DNA of 64,000 nucleotides, from the NCBI RefSeq assembly GCF_014696315.1, contig NZ_JACJPX010000003.1:1-64000 (forward strand), read 5' to 3'. The position numbers were made by a program, and so were the translations under genes. Each line of letters begins with the position of its first letter. Positions within the stretch are counted from its first letter, which is position 1. The notes below the pieces were generated by a model. That model did no database searches and was not told the DNA's origin. It was given only the letters and a program-made list of their open reading frames with translations. Below, one piece after another: positions 2,913 through 62,725 of the stretch. This stretch comes from Calothrix membranacea FACHB-236. GTDB taxonomy: Bacteria; Cyanobacteriota; Cyanobacteriia; Cyanobacteriales; Nostocaceae.

Positions 2913-3297
2913 TTTTATGTTTTAGCAGATTTAAGATAGTATACAAATTCTGACTAATTAGCTAGCACAAGCTATGCTCCAAAATATGATGCATAAATCA
3001 GGTTGGTAGCAGTGCAAATTTACATTAGTCAATATTGCTACATATTTATATTTGCTATGCACTTATAGGCATCTTTAAATCTGTTGTAATCAGCTACTGA
3101 TGAAACATCGATCAATCGTTTAATTAAACTCATGGTTGTTGTGCAATACAGTGTAGGCAATCAAGATTCGTTGAGCGATCGCTACTCCTGTATTTAACAA
3201 ACAATATCCGCCGCCTTGTTGGCAGATCTGGATAAATCATTTGAAAAAATACTAAATAAGACCGCATCTGTACCTCGCAGATGTGTTTCCACAAAAA
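2913..3297 (-). other. Long leader between riboswitch and cbiM
   Basis: About 385 nt without a convincing ORF. Just after the B12 box the minus strand can form a hairpin (arms CATCTG/CAGATG, plus-strand 3265-3270 and 3278-3283), followed after about 15 nt by a T-rich stretch. It could be the expression platform or an intrinsic terminator. The rest is AT-rich and featureless. Confidence 0.45.
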
Positions 3298-3300
3298 TAA

Positions 3301-3418
3301 CTAATAGGCGGGCATTCTGACTTACTCCATAAGAGTTCACAGCTGCGGGACAGCGTCGGATTTGCACCGAACTTTCCCCCTTACGTCTGATGGGTGTTTG
3401 CCATCAGAACCCATTAAA
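3301..3418 (-). promoter_or_regulatory. Cobalamin (B12, adenosylcobalamin-type) riboswitch
   Basis: Reading the minus strand: a GGTGCAAATCCGACGCTGTC core, then CCGCAGCTGTGA, then the B12 box AAGTCAGAATGCCCGCC at plus-strand 3307-3323. The order and the conserved bases match the cobalamin aptamer. It lies upstream of cbiMNQO and should lower cobalt uptake when B12 is plentiful. Confidence 0.93.
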
Positions 3419-3446
3419 TTAAAACAAAGTATATCATCAGGGAATA

Positions 3447-52841: not shown

Positions 52842-54026
52842 ATGGTCATATTAGGTAATGTGCTTAATGAATTTAAAAATTGTACACAATTACAGTACAA
52901 TGGCAAGTTAAATCTTCAAAGCGCAAAAAATCACAAATGGAGCTTTTATTATCGTCTAGGGCGAATAATTTGGGCATCAGGGGGGATTCATCCCTTTCGT
53001 CGTTGGCGAAGACAAATGGCGCAAAACTGTCCGGAAATTGATGTAGATAAGATACGTTTAAGTTCTCAAGACGTAGCAATTGAATATTGGGATTATCGGC
53101 TTTTAGAAATTTTATATAAAAAACAAAAAATTCAAAGAGAGCAATTTCATAATATTGTAGAACATACAATAGCAGAATTATTTTTTGATTTAGCTCAGGA
53201 GTCTGATTTTTCAGATTTAACTTGCAATCGTAGCCAAGAATTGATTGTAGAAATGCCCATGAGCTTTACCAGTGCAGATGTCTCTTTAAAACAGATGCAT
53301 GATTCGTGGAAGATTTGGTCAGAAGCAGGTTTAGCAAATTTATATCCTGATTTAGCACCTATAATTCGTAAGCCAGAACAACTCCAGCAATTAGTAAGTC
53401 CAGCTGTTTACAACAACTTTGTAAACTTGATCAATGGGAAATATACACTGCGAGATTTAGCGATAAGAATGAAGCAGAATCCATTACCCGTTGCTCGCTC
53501 ATTACTGCCTTATATACTTAAAGGTATTATTGAACTTATAGAAGTACCTGACTTACCATTAACAGTTGTTGAAGTTCAGAAGAATTCTACACCAGTAACG
53601 CCTCAAAAGCCCAATGCACCATTGGTAGCTTGTGTAGATGATAGCCCCCAAGTTGGGAAACTTTTAGAAGAAATTATTACTTCGCATGGGCTAAGATTTA
53701 TCAAAATTCAAGATGCTGTACAAGCTTTACCAATTCTCATTCAGAATAAGCCAGACTTAATTTTCTTAGATTTAATGATGCCTATTGCTAGTGGTTACGA
53801 AATCTGCACTCAGTTGCGTCGAATTTCTGCCTTTGCTCACACACCAATAATTATCCTCACAGGTAATGATGGTCTTTTAGATAGAGTTCGCGCTAAAGTG
53901 GTTGGCTCTACAGATTTTATGACTAAACCTGTAGCTAGTGATAAGGTAATGGGTATTGTACGCAAGTATTTACCTATCCCAGCTTCCTCAACCAAGAAAA
54001 ACGCCCCTCCAGTTAATAGTCTGTAA
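52842..54026 (+). CDS. pixG: PatA-type response regulator (PixG-like)
   Basis: First gene of the chemotaxis operon, 394 aa. The N-terminal 240 residues form a PATAN/DUF4388-like domain (FYYRLGRIIWASGGIHPFRR, then LANLYPDLAPIIRKPEQLQQ and LRDLAIRMKQNPLPVARSLLPYI), as in PatA and PixG. The C-terminal receiver has CVDDSPQVGKL, phospho-acceptor Asp310 in IFLDLMMP, IILTGNDG and Lys in FMTKPV. In Synechocystis PixG acts in phototaxis through type IV pili. Followed by CheY, CheW, MCP and CheA genes on the same strand, though a 542-nt gap separates it from the next gene. Confidence 0.88.
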   Translation: MVILGNVLNEFKNCTQLQYNGKLNLQSAKNHKWSFYYRLGRIIWASGGIHPFRRWRRQMAQNCPEIDVDKIRLSSQDVAIEYWDYRLLEILYKKQKIQREQFHNIVEHTIAELFFDLAQESDFSDLTCNRSQELIVEMPMSFTSADVSLKQMHDSWKIWSEAGLANLYPDLAPIIRKPEQLQQLVSPAVYNNFVNLINGKYTLRDLAIRMKQNPLPVARSLLPYILKGIIELIEVPDLPLTVVEVQKNSTPVTPQKPNAPLVACVDDSPQVGKLLEEIITSHGLRFIKIQDAVQALPILIQNKPDLIFLDLMMPIASGYEICTQLRRISAFAHTPIIILTGNDGLLDRVRAKVVGSTDFMTKPVASDKVMGIVRKYLPIPASSTKKNAPPVNSL

Positions 54027-54568
54027 TGCAAGTATTACTCTTAAGTAAGTACCTGTTTTTACTGGCTTATGAGACTGCATATAATCAAAAAAATTATTAA
54101 ACCCAAATTTTTCACCCAAAACAATTAGCTAACTCTTTAGCTGAAAGATTTTCCGGCTTTTTAAACTTATATTAAACTCTGATAATTCTTAAAGAGGGTG
54201 ATGTTTTCAGGACTTAATGACTTGATAAACCAATTTATAGATTATCCCAGTTCTAGCAATATTTTCAGATCTGACACGGGTAAAATTTGATGTGCCCCAA
54301 AAAATCGGTTACTTACCAAGCCAGAGTTAAAGTCTTACACCCTGCAATATCATTTATGAATCGAATTCAAAATTAACCTATCAATCTAGCAAATTTTTCT
54401 GAAAAGCTAGTTGAATATAACAATCAAATATATCTTCTTGATCAAAATTAATGCTTAGTTTTGGTCTTTAAGTGCTTTTTCTGAGGCTAATGTAGGAAAA
54501 ATGCATTAGCTTGATAAAAGCCAAATTTTTTGTTGAAAATCACAGTAGAACTTTAATAGGAAATTAAT
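54027..54568. other. Spacer between pixG and the CheY gene
   Basis: AT-rich, no ORF over 40 codons of protein-like composition, no obvious terminator. A second promoter for the downstream four genes is possible. Confidence 0.45.
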
Positions 54569-54934
54569 ATGAATACTGTTTTAGTTGTTGAAGATGGTTT
54601 GACTGACATGGAAATTATCAGTACTTACTTGCAACAGGCAGGATATTATGTCATGAGTGCCAAAACTAGTGAAGAAGCTCAATCCCAAATAGACAGAACA
54701 AAGCCTGATGTCATATTCCTTGATGTAATTTTGCCTGGTAAAAGTGGTTATGAAATTTGTAGAGAACTAAAAACTAATCCTCAAACTAGTAACATACCCG
54801 TAGTTTTTTGTTCGACTAAAAATAATGATGTAGATAAAGTCTGGGGTAATATGCTCGGAGCTGAAGCTTACTTATCAAAACCTGTTGATCGCAAAGAATT
54901 AGTAGAAACTTTACAGCGATTAATTAATCATTAG
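54569..54934 (+). CDS. pixH: CheY-like response regulator (PixH-like)
   Basis: Single receiver domain, 121 aa. Acidic residues in LVVEDGLTD, phospho-acceptor Asp52 in IFLDVILPG, Ser/Thr switch in VVFCSTK and Lys in AYLSKPVDRKE. Its place between the PatA-type regulator and CheW matches pixH. It should carry phosphate from the hybrid CheA to the pilus motor machinery. AATAGGAAA before the ATG is the ribosome site. CheW follows 62 nt later. Confidence 0.92.
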   Translation: MNTVLVVEDGLTDMEIISTYLQQAGYYVMSAKTSEEAQSQIDRTKPDVIFLDVILPGKSGYEICRELKTNPQTSNIPVVFCSTKNNDVDKVWGNMLGAEAYLSKPVDRKELVETLQRLINH

Positions 54935-54996
54935 TCCGAGGAATTGAGGAATAAGTAAACAGACAATAAATATCACATGACAAAGGAAAAATTATT

Positions 54997-55470
54997 TTGG
55001 AAACCAAACAAAAATTTTTAAGTTTTAATTTGGGAGCCAAGGATATAGGTGTAATTCAACTACAGCATATCACTGAAGTTTTACAAATATCATTGGCAGA
55101 AATCTGCGGTGTTCCTCAAATGCCTAATTGTGTATTGGGTATTTACAACTGGCGTGGCGAAATGCTTTGGTTAGTTGATTTAGAGGAGATGCTAGGGTAT
55201 TCTTCACTGTTACAAGGCTCCCATTTAGTTGCCAAAATGATGGCGATTGTTATAGAAAATGAGGGTAAATCTTTAGGTTTATTGGTACGTCAATTGACGG
55301 ATATTGAGTGGCTAAATACTCAAGAAATGAAAACACCCTCTGCGGAACTGTTTTCGCCAGCACTGTCACCATTTTTACAGGGCTACTTTATTAGCCCTAA
55401 TGAAGAGATGATGTTTACCTTAGATGCTTTAACAATTATCCAAGCTCCTATATGGGGTAATCATAATTAA
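54997..55470 (+). CDS. pixI: CheW-like coupling protein (PixI-like)
   Basis: Scaffold joining the chemoreceptor to CheA. A CheW domain of 157 aa beginning FLSFNLGAKDIGVIQLQHITEVL and including MPNCVLGIYNWRGEMLWLVDLEEML, the family's most conserved region. The start is TTG 54997 with AAAGGA about 11 nt upstream; an ATG 20 nt earlier is in another frame and no in-frame ATG precedes the domain. The MCP gene follows after 104 nt. Confidence 0.9.
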   Translation: METKQKFLSFNLGAKDIGVIQLQHITEVLQISLAEICGVPQMPNCVLGIYNWRGEMLWLVDLEEMLGYSSLLQGSHLVAKMMAIVIENEGKSLGLLVRQLTDIEWLNTQEMKTPSAELFSPALSPFLQGYFISPNEEMMFTLDALTIIQAPIWGNHN

Positions 55471-55574
55471 AATTTGGTAATTGACAAGAGAAATTATTCT
55501 TTCGATTACCAGATTTTTATTTTCAATTGGAATCTAGAAAATTATTACTAATTAAACTTAGTGAGGGGTGTAAA

Positions 55575-58500
55575 ATGAAATATTATGGCAGTGCCCAACC
55601 CAATAGTAATGCTGTTAATAAAAAAGAAGCCTTAGAAAATCAAAATGGTAGTCCGGAAATAGCCGGTATTGCTAGCGATGAATTGGATTTATTAAATGCA
55701 GTATCTCAGGAATTTAAAAGTTGGCGACAGCAACTACAAAGTATTTCTAGCCAATTACGTCAAGCGCCAGATCTGGATACACTACTGAAAGTTACTGTTA
55801 CACAAGTTAGGGAAAAAATTCTTAGCGATCGCGCCTTGATTTATCAGTTTACTACCTCTGAGAATGGTACTGTTTTAGAAGAATCGATCAACAGAGGTTG
55901 GACACCCACTCTCGGTGAAAATCTACCAGGTATTACCTTTGGTTTATATGAGAGTCAAGAGTATTTAGAACCTGTAGTTATTAATGATATTACACAGCTT
56001 CAAGTTACACCCTATCAACAACAACTTTTAGAAAAATTTCAAATCCAAGCTTGTTTAAGCTTACCAATTGTAGTTAACGAGCGCGTGTGGGGCTTGCTAG
56101 TAGTAAATCATTGTGCTGCTGCTAGACAATGGCAAGAAGTAGAAATTACCTTACTGTCTCAAGTTACTACAGAAATTGCCTACAGAATTCAAAGCTTTAC
56201 CTCCGAAAAACAAACCCAGCAGGAAATATTAGCACAGAAATCTATCGTTAAAGTTATTGATAGAATTCTCAATCTATCATCTATAGATAAAATATTTCAG
56301 ACAACTACTCACGAAATCCGTCAATTCCTCCACTGCGATCGCGTTGCGGTATATCGCTTCCGTCCCGACTGGAGTGGTGAATTTGTATCTGAATCTGTAG
56401 GGAATGCTTGGGTAAAACTAGTATCTCCAAATATGAATACTGTTTGGGAAGATACTTACTTACAAGAAACCCAAGGTGGACGTTATGCTAAAGGCGAAAG
56501 TTTAGCTGTTAATGATATTTATCAAGCCGATCACTCTCAATGTCATGTTGAGATTTTAGAACAGTTTGAAATGAAAGCCTATATCATAGTTCCAGTTTTA
56601 TCGGGACAAAAATTATGGGGTTTATTAGCAGCTTATCAAAATTCTGGCCCGCGTAATTGGCAACCTTGGGAAGTTAATTTTCTCACAGAAATGGGCTTAC
56701 AATTTGGTGTTGCTATTTCCCAAGCTGAATATTTAGAACAAGTACAAGCTAAAAATGAGCAGCTGACACAAATAGTTGAACAAGAAAAAACTTTAACTAA
56801 AATTGCCAACCGCATTCGCCAAACATTTGATACAGAAAGTATCTTTAAAATTACTACCCAAGAAGTTCGCCAATCTCTGCGCTGCGATCGCGTTGCAGTT
56901 TATCGTTTTAATGCTAACTGGGGTGGTGAGTTTATTGCAGAATCAGTAGGTCATGGTTGGGTAAAACTGGTAGGGCCGGATCTAAATACTGTCTGGGAAG
57001 ATACCTACTTGCAAGAAACTCAAGGTGGTAGATATGCTAAAGGCGAAAATTTGCTGGTGAAGGACATTCAGCAAGCGGGATTTTCTGCTTGTCATTTGGA
57101 AATTTTAGAGCAGTTTGAAGTTAAATCCTGCATGATAGTTCCTATTTTCTTAGGAGAAAAATTATGGGGATTATTAGGAGCTTATCAAAACTCAGAAACT
57201 CGTGATTGGAAAAACTGGGAGGTTAACTTTTTAGCACAAATCGGGTTGCAATTTAGTTTAGCTAAATCACAAATCGAATATTTTGATCAGGTACGAGTTA
57301 AATCTGAAAAATTAGCTCAGATTGCCGAACAAGAAAAAGCCTTAACAAAACTAGTGGATCGGATTCGCCAATCTTTAGATGTGGAAGAAATCTTCAAAAC
57401 ATCAACACAAGATATCCGGCAATTACTCAAATGCGATCGCGCCTGTATCTATCGCTTTAACCCCGACTGGAGTGGGGAATTTGTAGCTGAATCAGTAGCT
57501 CATGGTTGGGTAAAATTGGTAGGCCCTGATAAAAAAACTGTCTGGGCAGATACCCAATTACAAGAATGTGCCCAAATTGGTAAATATCAGAAAGGTGATA
57601 CCTTCTTCACTAATGACATTTACACTGCTGGACATTCAGCTTGTCATATTGAAGCATTAGAGAAATTTGAAGTTAGAGCTTATGTGACAGTGCCTATATT
57701 CTTTGGGGAAAAACTTTGGGGATTATTGGCAGTTTATCAAAATTCTGGGCCTCGTGAGTGGGAAGAATCAGAAATTAGCTTGTTAGGTCGGACTTCTGAC
57801 CAGTTAGGGTTAGCATTACAACAAACTGAGTATTTGCAACAAGTACAAGCACAGTCGGCACAATTAGCTGAAGCAGCCGCCAGAGAAAAAGCCGCTAAAG
57901 AGTTATTACAACAGCGTTCTATTCAACTTCTGACAGCACTCAGGCCGGCCCTCAATGGTAACTTGACGGTACGCGCACCTATTACAGAAGATGAGCTAGG
58001 TACAATTGCTGATGCTTACAATAATACCCTGCAAGCACTCCGGCAGATTGTTATTCAGGTACAAGCAGCAGCTCAACAAGTTTCCCAAACTTCCGATACT
58101 AGCGAAGCATCATTAGTTGGACTTACGCAATTAGCCAACCAACAATCCCAAGAAATGGCTGCAGCCTTGAATGATATTCAACAAATGGTTGACTCAACAA
58201 AAGCTGTGGTATCCAATGCTGAATTGGTACAAGTTGCAGTTAAACAAGCTAACCAAACTGTCGAGTCTGGTGATGCTGCGATGAACCTGACTGTACAAGC
58301 TATCCAAGGAATTCGTGAAACTGTTGCCCAAACTAGTAAAAAGATTAAACGCCTCAGCGAATCTTCGCAAAAAATCTCGAAAGTGGTGAACTTAATTAGT
58401 AATTTTGCTACCCAGACAAACGTTCTAGCTTTGAACGCCGCCATTGAAGCTACCCGTGCAGGTGAATATGGCAAAGGTTTTGCAGTGGTAGCTGATGAAG

Positions 58501-58892
58501 TTCGTTCTTTATCTCGCCAGTCAGCCGCAGCCACTATCGAAATTGAAAAGTTAGTGCAAGAGATTCAAGCAGAAACCGGTGAAGTAGCAGTGGCGATGGA
58601 AACAGGTATTCAACAAGTTGTAGAAGGTACAAATCTTGTTAATGATGCCCGCCACAATTTGAACGCCATTGTGAGTGCAACGGCTGAAATTAGCCAATTA
58701 CTCCAACGTATTACTGAAGCTACTCAAAAACAAATGTCTCAATCTGTGACAGTAACTTCAAGTATGAAAGATGTCGCAGAAATTTCTCACAAAACTGTTG
58801 CAGAATCTCATGAAATCGCAGCTGTTTTCCAACAATTATCGGGAATGGCAAAAGAACTATTAGCAACTGCAAGTAAGTTTAAGGTTAATTAA
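55575..58892 (+). CDS. pixJ: Photoreceptor MCP with four GAF domains, three of CBCR type (PixJ/PtxD-like)
   Basis: Soluble-looking methyl-accepting chemotaxis protein, 1105 aa. Start at ATG 55575, backed by GAGGGG 7 nt upstream; the frame is open to a TTG at 55527. GAF1 (about 55-205) lacks a chromophore cysteine. GAF2, GAF3 and GAF4 each carry Cys-His at a canonical bilin-binding site (Cys323, Cys506, Cys690) and the WxDT tryptophan of red/green CBCRs (Trp291, Trp474, Trp657). No DXCF second cysteine. GAF4 reads [15 protein letters not shown] where the others read [19 protein letters not shown]-like segment (785-835) precedes the signalling hairpin ([20 protein letters not shown]). No membrane helix is seen. 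Confidence 0.93.
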
Positions 58893-58990
58893 TGGGGATT
58901 GGGGAATAGGTAATGGGTAATGGGTAATGGGGAATGGGTAATGGGGACAAATACTCAAACCCAAACCCCAAACACCAAATAGCAAATAAT
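58893..58990. repeat. STRR array between pixJ and pixL
   Basis: GGGGATT and GGGTAAT units start at the pixJ stop codon and fill most of the 106-nt spacer, followed by CAAACCC/CAAACAC units. Confidence 0.88.
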
Positions 58991-58998
58991 TTAAATAT

Positions 58999-61900
58999 AT
59001 GACTATAGATAATGATATTCGCGAACAGGGATACATCTATTTTTTGGCTGAAGCTCCTGAATTATTACAAATTATTGAACAAGAAATATATACATTAGCG
59101 GAAAATTTTACTATAGCTAAAGTCCATGAATTAATGCGGGCAACTCACACAATTAAAGGGGGAGCCGCAAATGTGGGTTTAGAGAGTATTCAAACGATTG
59201 CCCACTCTTTAGAAGATGTATTTAATGCTTTATATAATCCCAATGTTGTTATTGATTCACAATTACAAACATTAATATTACAAGCTTATGAATGCTTAAG
59301 TTTAGCACTCACAGCAGAACTAACAGGTTGTGATATCAATAGTGAAGAACTGCTGCAGCGAGCTGCTTCTGTATTTGTACATTTACAAGAAAAACTAGGT
59401 GATGCTTTTGGTGCTGAGGCGCATATTCCTACTTCTGAAGAATTAGGATTTGATATTGTTCAGTCTATCTTTGAGGTAGGGGTAAAACAACGCATAGAAA
59501 GTATTACGGAAGCTTTAAATAGTAATATTGATAGTGCAGAATTTACAAATTTACTGCGGGAGCAAGCTGAGATATTTATTGGTTTAGCAGAATCTTTAAA
59601 TCTACCTGGTTTTGGCGCGATCGCCCAAACAATTCTGGCAGCGCTGACAGCTAATCCCCATCAAGTATATCAAATTGGTGAAGCTGCTCTCGCTAATTTA
59701 CAGCAGGCACAAGCAGCAGTATTAGCTGGCGATCGCACTTCTGGCGGAGAACCTAGTTTAGCTTTACAAAATTTAGCTAAAGTAGTTACAGATGAGTTAA
59801 ATACAATTACAAATATATCTATTCCACACAACGATTTACAAAATCAAATTAAGCAATTATATAAATTTTTAATTATATCTGGTAATCTCAAAAAACAGCC
59901 TCTCACCCCAGCCCAAGCTAAGTTTTATATTCAAGTTGTTCGCTATATTTTTGGCTGGTTTAATCATTATCGAGAAATTCCTCAAGAAGACTTGAGTTTG
60001 TCTTTATTAGTAGCATCGGAAGATGAAGACTTACTTACTTATATTGAACATTGGTTAAGTCAATTTTTAGATTATCTCCAAGAGGTAGAAGATAGCCAGA
60101 GTCTTCGTCTTTACCGCCAAGGAGTGATATTATCTATTATTCTCGCTGTCTTGAGATTTTACTACTCGGAACAATCACTGAATGGTGATAGTTCTATCAT
60201 CCCAACATTGCAACAACAAATTGGTAAACTAGCTCAAACTTATAAAAAATATCCTCCTGTCACAGCCCAAGAAAAAAACTGGCTTGATAATCCTAAGCTA
60301 CAACAACTATTAGTATTTAAAGAAATATCTTCCCAGCCAGCTATCACAGAAGCTGATAACTTACTAGAAAAAATTTGGGGAGGAGAAGTTAATTTAAATT
60401 CTACCTATGAAATTGTTGAGACTACTGAAAATCTAGAAACGCCGAAATTTTCCCAAACTCCCCCGGAACAGGTAACAGTTACTTCCATAGCTGTGCAGGA
60501 ACCAGCAGTTACAGATATTTCTAGTTCTGCTATTGATATTCATCAAGAAATAGAAGATAAAATTTCCCATTCTTCTCAGAAGAATTCGCGGCATCATGCT
60601 TTTGTGCGAGTTAATACAGAAGGATTACAACGCCTCAATTACTTGGCTGGAGAATTATTAATTAAGCAAAAACAGCGGATATTACAAGACGAACAAGTTA
60701 AAGAAATTATTGAGCAATTAGTACAGCGGCTTAACAGACAACAAAGTATTTTAAGCCAACTGGGTGATTTACCTTTACAGATGCAGAGTGCTGTCTTACA
60801 GCATAAAGAAAACTTTACACCTGTAAAATTTGATGCTTTAGAAATGGATGTATATACAGAATTTCAGATGACGTTGCATGAGGCTATAGAAGAAACCTTG
60901 CAACTACAAGAAATTACTGAATCTTTAGATTTATTACTAACGCAAGCTAATCAACTGAGTGAGAAAAAGCAGAGATTAACGCTGAATATTATCGATAACT
61001 TAGTGGAAGCCAGGATGTCGCCGTTAGGCAATATCATGAATCGATTCCCCCAAATGGTGAAAAAAATGGGGAATGTGTATGCCAAGCTAGTAGATTTTAA
61101 AGTCAGTGGGACTGATGTACTAGTAGATAAAGCGATCGCGGAAAAACTCTACGATCCACTATTACATTTGGTACGTAATGCCTTCGATCACGGTATTGAA
61201 ACAACACAAGTTCGCCAATCTCTGGGTAAACCAGAACAAGCTGTAATCGAAATTTCTGCCTATCATCAAGGTAGCCAAACTGTGATTGAAGTTAGGGATG
61301 ATGGTCAAGGTATAAATTTAGAGAGAATTCGCCAAAAAGCTGTTGAACTAAATCTGTTAGCTGATGTTTATCACCCAACTGAATCAGAAATTCTCGATTT
61401 GATGTTTTCACCTGGATTTTCTACGGCTGAACAGGTGAGTGAAATTTCTGGACGTGGTATGGGTTTAGATATTGTACGTTCACAATTACATGCGCTCAAT
61501 GGCTCAATTTCGGTTAAATCATTTCCTAACCAAGGCACAAAATTTATACTTAAAGTTCCTTTTTCTATGACTACAGATAAATTAATGCTGGTGCAAGCAG
61601 ACGGTGTTTTTTACGCCTTGCTGTTAGATAACCTGGAAAAAATCATAATTCCTTCAGAGCAGCAAATCAAAGAATTTGATGACAAAAAAGTACTGTACTA
61701 CAATACAGAGCAAGAGCAGCGCATGGTAAGCCTCAGCCGAATTTCTGATCTCATGTATTATCATGGCGCGCTACTCAATAATGTTAATCTTAACAATACC
61801 CAAACTCCTTATGACACAGGAATTACCCAACAACCTGTGTTATTGCTGCGGCGAAATCAAGAAATGTTTGGCTTAGAAGTTGACCAAATTATTGGTGAAC

Positions 61901-62604
61901 AAGAGTTAGTAATTAGACCTTTGGGAAATGCGATCGCTCCACCAAAATATATTTATGGTTGTAGTAGTTTAGCTAACGGCACTCTCATCTTAGTAATCGA
62001 TCCCACACTGTTGCTTGAGTCTTATGAAATGCAAGCTACCCTAGAGAGTAGCATCCCATCAACCGCTTATTTAGCAAATAAAGCAGCTTTAAGCTTATCA
62101 AGTGTAAATTCTAACTCTACACCCCTATTAGCTGCTTCTCCTGTTAGCAACACAACACCAACCCAGGTTAGCCAGTCCACATTAGCTACTCCCAAGTCAT
62201 CGGCTGTGCTTTTAGTGGTAGATGATGCTATTAGCCTCCGGCAAACTATTTCTTTAACATTGCAAAAATCTGGCTATCAAGTATTACAGGCACAAAATGG
62301 TGTGGAAGCTTTAGAACAATTGCAAAGACATCCAGAAATTAAAGTGGTAATTTCTGACTTAGAAATGCCACGTATGAATGGGTTTGAGCTTTTATCTAAT
62401 GTCCGCCAAAGCCCAAATTTAGCAGATTTGCCAATAGTAATTCTGACTTCACGCAGTGCGGAAAAACATCGCCAGCTAGCTCAGGCTTTAGGCGCAACTG
62501 CTTACTTAACTAAACCCTATTTGGAAGAAAGTCTAATTTCTTTAGTTGAAGATTTAAGTAGCAAAAGCCAGGATAAGTCCAATAATTTAATCATGAGTAA
62601 GTAA
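58999..62604 (+). CDS. pixL: Hybrid CheA-type histidine kinase (PixL-like)
   Basis: Central kinase of the photosensory pathway, 1201 aa. Hpt domain at the N-terminus with phospho-accepting His50 in ATHTIKGGAANVG. A second helical, Hpt-like region without histidine lies at about 145-250, followed by a long linker. Dimerisation and linker helices include NLVEARMSPLGNIMNRFPQMV. The ATPase domain shows LLHLVRNAFDHG (about 723), DDGQGINL and GRGMGLDIVRSQL (about 817). CheW-like domain about 857-1010. The C-terminal receiver has Asp1120 in VISDLEMPR. This domain order is that of cyanobacterial PixL/PilL-type CheA. No CheB or CheR gene is adjacent. Operon closed by the terminator at 62682. Confidence 0.94.
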   Translation: MTIDNDIREQGYIYFLAEAPELLQIIEQEIYTLAENFTIAKVHELMRATHTIKGGAANVGLESIQTIAHSLEDVFNALYNPNVVIDSQLQTLILQAYECLSLALTAELTGCDINSEELLQRAASVFVHLQEKLGDAFGAEAHIPTSEELGFDIVQSIFEVGVKQRIESITEALNSNIDSAEFTNLLREQAEIFIGLAESLNLPGFGAIAQTILAALTANPHQVYQIGEAALANLQQAQAAVLAGDRTSGGEPSLALQNLAKVVTDELNTITNISIPHNDLQNQIKQLYKFLIISGNLKKQPLTPAQAKFYIQVVRYIFGWFNHYREIPQEDLSLSLLVASEDEDLLTYIEHWLSQFLDYLQEVEDSQSLRLYRQGVILSIILAVLRFYYSEQSLNGDSSIIPTLQQQIGKLAQTYKKYPPVTAQEKNWLDNPKLQQLLVFKEISSQPAITEADNLLEKIWGGEVNLNSTYEIVETTENLETPKFSQTPPEQVTVTSIAVQEPAVTDISSSAIDIHQEIEDKISHSSQKNSRHHAFVRVNTEGLQRLNYLAGELLIKQKQRILQDEQVKEIIEQLVQRLNRQQSILSQLGDLPLQMQSAVLQHKENFTPVKFDALEMDVYTEFQMTLHEAIEETLQLQEITESLDLLLTQANQLSEKKQRLTLNIIDNLVEARMSPLGNIMNRFPQMVKKMGNVYAKLVDFKVSGTDVLVDKAIAEKLYDPLLHLVRNAFDHGIETTQVRQSLGKPEQAVIEISAYHQGSQTVIEVRDDGQGINLERIRQKAVELNLLADVYHPTESEILDLMFSPGFSTAEQVSEISGRGMGLDIVRSQLHALNGSISVKSFPNQGTKFILKVPFSMTTDKLMLVQADGVFYALLLDNLEKIIIPSEQQIKEFDDKKVLYYNTEQEQRMVSLSRISDLMYYHGALLNNVNLNNTQTPYDTGITQQPVLLLRRNQEMFGLEVDQIIGEQELVIRPLGNAIAPPKYIYGCSSLANGTLILVIDPTLLLESYEMQATLESSIPSTAYLANKAALSLSSVNSNSTPLLAASPVSNTTPTQVSQSTLATPKSSAVLLVVDDAISLRQTISLTLQKSGYQVLQAQNGVEALEQLQRHPEIKVVISDLEMPRMNGFELLSNVRQSPNLADLPIVILTSRSAEKHRQLAQALGATAYLTKPYLEESLISLVEDLSSKSQDKSNNLIMSK

Positions 62605-62647
62605 TGGTTAATATTTAGTTCCAAGTTGGCGCTTAATTTCTGAATTG

Positions 62648-62670
62648 TACAGGTATAAGCAATACCTGTA
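62648..62670 (+). terminator. First hairpin after pixL
   Basis: TACAGGTAT and ATACCTGTA form a perfect 9-bp stem with a 5-nt loop. Only a short AT-rich stretch follows, so it may be an RNA-stabilising hairpin rather than a terminator. Confidence 0.5.
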
Positions 62671-62681
62671 GTATATTAATT

Positions 62682-62725
62682 ATGAGTAGGGACGCGCTGG
62701 TGTGTGTCCCTACTCATGTATTTTT
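62682..62725 (+). terminator. Strong intrinsic terminator of the pix operon
   Basis: ATGAGTAGGGAC pairs perfectly with GTCCCTACTCAT across a 12-nt loop and is followed by GTATTTTT. It lies 78 nt downstream of pixL. Confidence 0.85.

Follow-up and report, generated by a model that had tools for sequence, protein, structure and literature searches.

We report on a putative chemotaxis operon of Calothrix membranacea FACHB-236, carried on the first 64,000 nucleotides of contig NZ_JACJPX010000003.1 (the window) in a genome of 8.81 Mb and 164 contigs. Five open reading frames (ORFs), all on the plus strand between 52842 and 62604, encode a PatA-type regulator, CheY, CheW, a methyl-accepting chemotaxis protein (MCP) with cyanobacteriochrome (CBCR) GAF domains and a hybrid CheA. 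This unidirectional set, already named in the original prediction made from the same DNA, is supported by Pfam, with the PATAN-like DUF4388 domain of the regulator falling just short at 23.7 bits (cut-off 25); an NCBIfam scan added nothing beyond generic models for receiver, CheA and MCP, all under cut-off. By its sequence the locus is the AnPixJ/NpR6012 operon, a paralog of ptx and a known type that is common across relatives, and we propose with good confidence that it forms the cytosolic red/green light-quality relay of a Nostoc-like cyanobacterium. The domain content of the five genes, the residues of the bilin sites, orthology and purifying selection carry this reading, the last being evident from ratios of nonsynonymous to synonymous substitution rates (dN/dS) of 0.05-0.19 for the five genes against the orthologous loci L023 and L025.

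ATG 55575 is the most likely start of the receptor and TTG 55527, which would give 1121 residues, an unlikely one, because the lengths of its orthologs cluster at 1097-1111 residues (36 of 76, the commonest being 1102 in fourteen and 1105 in six). Trp289, Asp291, Cys321, His322 and Tyr352 of AnPixJg2 are all present in its GAF2, GAF3 and GAF4, and none of them is found in GAF1. In AnPixJg2 itself, Cys321 is described as linking the bilin, and W289, D291, R301, H322 and Y352 as crucial to cofactor stability (PMC8156171), while the WXDXXL motif is presented as a mark of the extended red/green (XRG) lineage (PMC11284453). From the combination of WXDXXL and CH motifs, red/green photoconversion is predicted for GAF2, GAF3 and GAF4; the GAF domains of the window receptor carry no DXCF motif. 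The best matches of the receptor in the PDB are 6bhn on GAF4 (2e-83) and 3w2z on GAF2 (8e-83). We take 6BHN to be NpR6012g4, to which the window GAF4 is 72% identical, and GAF2 is 70% identical to AnPixJg2; chains that we take to be TePixJ score far lower. Three chromophore-ready domains had been predicted and are borne out by these complete sites, as is the lack of a membrane helix: Kyte-Doolittle hydropathy (19-residue window) peaks at 1.57 against a threshold of 1.6, a crude test beside which no dedicated predictor was run.

GAF4 carries a site of its own. At 57560-57580 of the window, QECAQ[IM]GKY replaces QETQGGRY, which introduces an extra cysteine (codon at about 57567, near AnPixJg2 position 297) and puts lysine in place of Arg301; among all GAF domains of the 76 receptors, the QECA motif is restricted to the window, L022 and L082. 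The cysteine was rejected as the DXCF cysteine, which lies at a different position, and as the second cysteine of AM1_1186g2, which maps to position 302 (offset 2208 gives Tyr302; PMC6628166). Insert-Cys CBCRs carry their cysteine in a large loop insertion (PMC6628166), and the insertion here is a single residue.

Orthology was assessed in the best 80 of 527 stretches that encode a CheA relative, all from named genomes (L022-L101). All five genes are found in the same order and on the same strand in 73 of these loci, and the remaining seven (L024, L030, L041, L058, L067, L093 and L100) sit at contig ends; the PatA and CheA frames of L096 are shortened, and L099 is distant. Identity of the CheA to that of the window is 53-98%, with the exception of three distant loci (L093, L099 and L100), and the closest named relative at the locus is Nostoc linckia FACHB-104, with a 98% identical CheA. 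A receptor was identified in 76 of the 80 loci, with four GAF domains in 45, five in 15, six in ten, seven in three, and eight, three and one (on a cut contig) in a single receptor each. The soluble three-chromophore layout, which the original prediction had set out as a difference from SyPixJ1, is not peculiar to the window and is the commonest form among the orthologs. Arrays of up to seven or eight GAF domains stand in the same operon in L053, L055, L079 and others, so array length evidently changes fast.

Within the 46 four-GAF receptors (window included), the bilin cysteine is absent from GAF1 in all 46 and present in GAF2 of 44 of 45 (one row is too short), and in GAF3 and GAF4 of all 46. 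Trp289 of GAF3 is kept in just 13 of the 46, among them the window, and is changed to leucine in 29, where the bilin cysteine is retained and the substitution is likely to mark a colour variant. The three intact red/green sites of the window receptor are therefore a minority state, unusual for less colour diversity and not for more. The characterised domains fall into place within the same set: AnPixJg2, of what is presumably All1069 of Anabaena/Nostoc PCC 7120, has as its nearest counterpart a GAF2 at 96.6% (L056, Nostoc parmelioides), and NpR6012g4 of Nostoc punctiforme a GAF4 at 97.7% (L036). The top five matches of AnPixJg2 are all GAF2 domains and those of NpR6012g4 all GAF4 domains. The window thus shares with the AnPixJ operon a red/green GAF2 (3W2Z) and with NpR6012 the red/green receptor type, differing from the former in the extra cysteine and insertion of GAF4 and from most receptors of the latter type in the retained tryptophan of GAF3.

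A tree of 47 CheA-like proteins, built on their C-terminal CheW-receiver part, separates this operon from its paralog. From this tree x_L161 was excluded, as it lacks the trimming motif, and four of the kinase-less CheA proteins discussed below (L141, L143, L147 and L150) were not included. The window CheA falls in a pix clade of 17 rows (support 100/99) that also holds L056, with its AnPixJg2-like domain, and L039 (N. punctiforme NIES-2108); six ptx rows form a clade of their own (100/100) and the window lies outside it. The CheAs encoded at C117 and C77 (the latter with a TPR-type MCP) of the host genome, which we assume to be tax-like and hmp-like, respectively, are set apart from the window CheA by a 100/99 branch. 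The CheA phylogeny, named in the original prediction as the means of exposing an hmp or tax3 system, accordingly does not place the locus with either.

The ptx rows stem from a survey of 140 family genomes, in which a second class of CheA matches, at 40-46% identity, appeared besides the orthologs. Within this class, six loci (L153-L158) have gvpA upstream, followed by PatA-like, CheY and CheW genes and a receptor of 1747-1793 residues with seven GAF matches; we identify them as ptx because this layout fits the published one (PMC5812497), and gvpA is reported to be co-transcribed with ptx (PMC6495340). Other loci of the class, such as L160, L162 and L165-L171, have different layouts. The ptx operons resemble the window in their PatA-like, CheY and CheW genes, their CBCR receptor and their hybrid CheA, and differ from it in the upstream gvpA, the seven GAF domains, a J-Box that precedes gvpA in most of the loci inspected and a separate CheA clade. 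The match to ptx of N. punctiforme that had been predicted does not hold, and that the window locus is itself a ptx operon is a reading to which we give next to no credence. Its gene order is identical, with CheY 54-55% and the MCP domain 56-57% identical to those of L153-L158. These likenesses are outweighed by a CheA core that is 42-44% identical to ptx, against 53-98% among the pix orthologs with the exceptions given above, by the separate clades and by the absence of gvpA from the window in both the ORF list and a tblastn search; the contrast of four GAF domains with seven is tempered by pix arrays that reach eight. On clade, layout and CheA identity we exclude ptx.

The other half of the predicted kinship holds: PatA-like, CheY, CheW, MCP and CheA genes stand together as they do in Synechocystis PCC 6803, in what we take to be the pixGHIJL order. 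As described, that operon (tax1) agrees with the window locus in gene content and in the logic of its output (PMC5812497). Its receptor SyPixJ1 differs in having two membrane helices and two GAF domains, with one blue/green-type bilin (PMC5812497), where the window receptor is soluble and has three red/green-type sites.

These comparisons suggest a model for the AnPixJ/NpR6012-type relay, whose photochemistry, phosphoflow and pilus output we infer from characterised relatives. GAF2, GAF3 and GAF4 would each attach phycocyanobilin through the cysteine of the CH motif and toggle between a dark state that absorbs red and a photoproduct that absorbs green, with GAF1 serving as a structural domain that binds no bilin. 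The MCP tip would receive the photostate by way of the coiled coil and, with the PixI-like CheW as intermediary, set the autophosphorylation of the PixL-like hybrid CheA. Alignment confirms that this CheA keeps its Hpt histidine, from which phosphate could pass to the PixH-like CheY, to the PixG-like PATAN-receiver protein and to the CheA's own receiver; the PATAN protein would then act on the type IV pilus apparatus.

Several points weigh against this reading. The comparisons with Synechocystis, Anabaena 7120 and N. punctiforme PCC 73102 were made through PDB chains and published descriptions. The CheA tree covers only the C-terminal part of the protein and contains long branches that were flagged. 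With its insertion, extra cysteine and change of Arg301 to lysine, GAF4 departs from the red/green norm, and its colour is unsure. AnPixJ comes from Nostoc 7120, a strain described as forming no hormogonia (PMC6495340), a loss that the same source ascribes to laboratory culture.

Alternative readings concern what the operon does and what it sees. It might be the steering system of hormogonium phototaxis, replacing an absent ptx, which is close to the role originally predicted. None of the seven host MCPs that pass the Pfam cut-off has the ptx layout with seven GAF domains, and the host genome yielded no second CheA with more than 36% identity to that of the window; a member of the same genus (G056) has both the pix and the ptx operons; and the window operon is intact, under purifying selection and equipped with a PATAN-like output protein. 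The demonstrated phenotype, however, belongs to PtxD: filaments of N. punctiforme, the source of NpR6012g4, are reported to be motile without PtxD and to lose positive phototaxis (PMC5812497), and three other receptors of the host genome, with DXCF motifs, are also candidates. The control of transcription likewise argues against steering. ptx is described as controlled by SigJ, whose promoters carry the J-Box GGGaAtacT (PMC6495340), and we scored this motif with GGG, A and the final T obligatory (maximum 9), over 300 bases upstream of the pix genes and 500 bases upstream of gvpA, deriving expectations from mononucleotide shuffles. In the 80 loci, scores of 8-9 occur before patA in 0 of 71 (0.7 expected) and before cheY in 1 of 73 (0.8 expected), compared with scores of at least 8 before gvpA in four of six ptx loci. 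At a score of at least 7 the counts are three before patA (3.2 expected), eight before cheY (3.5 expected, a mild and unexplained excess) and six of six before gvpA, and the best scores in the window are 5 and 6. The PATAN gene of C77, possibly hmp, scores just 6, which weakens the test. Since strong matches are not enriched before patA or cheY, the window operon is probably not directly under SigJ, which is still compatible with a role in motile filaments. Hormogonium steering is thus left unsupported, and we regard it as unlikely.

An operon that tunes light sensitivity or gene expression and does not steer, in the manner of PixJ from Phormidium lacuna, is a reading that we rate at a little below even. 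P. lacuna PixJ is reported to regulate photophobotaxis negatively (PMC13383048), the same study describes photophobotaxis as being without evidence in three Nostocales, and the AnPixJ source strain reportedly forms no hormogonia, as noted above. Against this stand the PATAN-like regulator, a feature of known motility operons, the putative nature of any orthology with P. lacuna PixJ, and the attribution of the Nostoc 7120 loss to culture. Most likely, the window operon adjusts motility or the sensitivity to light and is not the only receptor system by which hormogonia steer; among titles and abstracts of the literature searched, none gives an in vivo function for the NpR6012 or AnPixJ operons. 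It had also been suggested that the receptor reads a combination of colours, with GAF4 as a spectral outlier. The QECA site of GAF4, with its inserted cysteine after WXDXXL and a lysine in place of Arg301, a combination found otherwise only in L022 and L082, leaves room for this; yet GAF2, GAF3 and GAF4 all keep WXDXXL and CH, and the extra cysteine is at neither the DXCF nor the AM1_1186g2 position (PMC6628166). A combination of colours is therefore not predicted, and we consider it improbable.

The features are collected below, together with a second light-receptor module of the genome. Owing to the 542-bp gap between patA and cheY, the five genes are only a putative single transcription unit. 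The gap contains a conserved stretch, AAGTGCTTTTTCTGAGG or a near form of it (at about 54458-54515, some 91-103 bases before cheY and about 99 in the window), which is common to the window, L022, L023, L025 and L082 and may be a separate promoter; related strings are visible in L061, L078 and L079. The perfect 12-bp terminator of the original prediction is confirmed as part of a 17-pair hairpin of -29.9 kcal/mol (z -6.6), a fold that none of 200 shuffles equalled. The region scan found 11 terminator-like sites where 8.4 were expected, so it is the strength of the hairpin, not the number of sites, that supports a terminator. Its sequence is not conserved, being present among eight orthologous loci inspected just in the 98% identical L022. 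A dispersed genome repeat was considered and rejected, as the pattern occurs once in the genome, with weaker look-alikes only. The next gene downstream, from 63186 past 64000 (L108:13187-16546), encodes a large hybrid histidine kinase that combines PAS and GAF domains with two receiver stretches, and a cobalamin riboswitch (63.9 bits) is found at 3290-3429 on the minus strand. A plasmid search at near-DNA level gave no match.

Table 1. Coordinates of the pix operon, its flanking elements and the C154 module (positions in the window unless a locus is given).
Feature	Position	Strand	Support or relatives
PatA/PixG-type regulator, PATAN-like N-terminus (DUF4388) and receiver	52842-54026	+	ORF, Pfam
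patA-cheY gap, 542 bp	54027-54568	+	
CheY/PixH-type single receiver	54569-54934	+	ORF, Pfam
CheW/PixI-type coupling protein, TTG start, 157 aa (a length shared by many orthologs)	54997-55470	+	ORF, Pfam
PixJ-type soluble receptor, 1105 aa: four GAFs, linker, MCP signalling domain	55575-58892	+	
GAF1, without bilin cysteine and without WXDXXL	55722-56222	+	
GAF2, predicted XRG-type bilin GAF, WEDTYL and CH	56232-56762	+	
GAF3, predicted XRG-type bilin GAF, WEDTYL and CH, Trp kept	56784-57314	+	
GAF4, predicted XRG-type bilin GAF, WADTQL and CH, one-residue insertion	57330-57866	+	
MCP signalling domain, canonical tip	58290-58784	+	
Hybrid CheA/PixL: Hpt, HATPase, CheW, C-terminal receiver	58999-62604	+	ORF, Pfam
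Terminator-like hairpin, 17 pairs, T-rich tail	62681-62718	+	
C154 module: DXCF-type (blue/green-type) receptor, then kinase-less CheA	L107:7058-11932	minus	L139-L152

The three further MCPs of the host genome with DXCF-motif GAF domains lie at C117, C126 and C154. That of C117 (L102) belongs to a complete PatA-CheY-CheW-MCP-CheA operon and combines dCache and HAMP domains with DPCF and NCYI motifs, and that of C126 (L103) is an orphan receptor with HAMP, DPCF and ECH. In the PDB, C126 is nearest to the group that we take to be TePixJ, which is preceded by two histidine-kinase chains among the matches of C117 and by one among those of C154. By sequence, then, Synechocystis-like membrane receptors of the DXCF type are encoded elsewhere in the genome and the window is its red/green channel.

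The C154 receptor is followed by a CheA of 554 residues in which Pfam detects CheW and receiver domains, a weak match to Hpt and no HATPase; its Hpt histidine is replaced by glutamine. At least 16 of 145 family genomes carry this type of module: all eight sampled in the genus and eight across three other genera. Fifteen of these pseudo-CheAs were aligned, and they fall into three stages, with 554-572 residues and an Hpt region in eight rows (the histidine still present in L143 and L144), 425-426 residues and no Hpt region in three, and 318-329 residues comprising CheW and receiver only, the layout of CheV, in four. No HATPase was found by Pfam in the six of fifteen that were scanned, the other nine being judged from length and alignment, and for the three short ones among these six Pfam returned CheW and receiver only. 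The acidic pair, Asp, Ser/Thr and Lys of the receiver are kept in all fifteen. The readable receptor tips of the C154 type are altered alike (QIKLQAMHTALEASR), unlike the window tip; no tip lies in frame in L143, in L147 or in one of the two pieces of L150. In the CheA tree, eleven pseudo-CheAs form one clade (100/100), and against five relatives the dN/dS of the C154 pseudo-CheA is 0.17-0.28, slightly above the 0.13-0.23 of its receptor, which shows the module to be under purifying selection. The protein looks like a maintained adaptor and not a dying gene.

This adaptor raises the prospect that the window PixL, or another CheA, drives the array of the C154 membrane receptor in trans through the CheV-like pseudo-CheA, which we put forward as a speculation with little credence. 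A specific tie to PixL was considered and is argued against by G047, G085, G106, G109 and G120, which carry the module while their best matches to the window CheA are at 44-45%. Kinase-less or CheV-like CheA proteins of cyanobacteria are absent from the titles and abstracts of the literature searched, and the kinase-less CheA is a more novel finding than the window locus.

The names pix and ptx are easily merged as 'pix/ptx'. A role in hormogonium phototaxis has been demonstrated for ptx, while for the pix paralog, whose GAF domains have been studied in depth, the literature consulted gives no in vivo function. The host strain carries just pix and at least one other member of its genus both operons, so that the genus offers a natural test of what pix does. 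If PixL and the C154 array were indeed shared, the red/green and blue/green channels would converge on one kinase, and the C154 pseudo-CheA is a possible case of a CheA becoming a CheV-like adaptor, seen at several stages.

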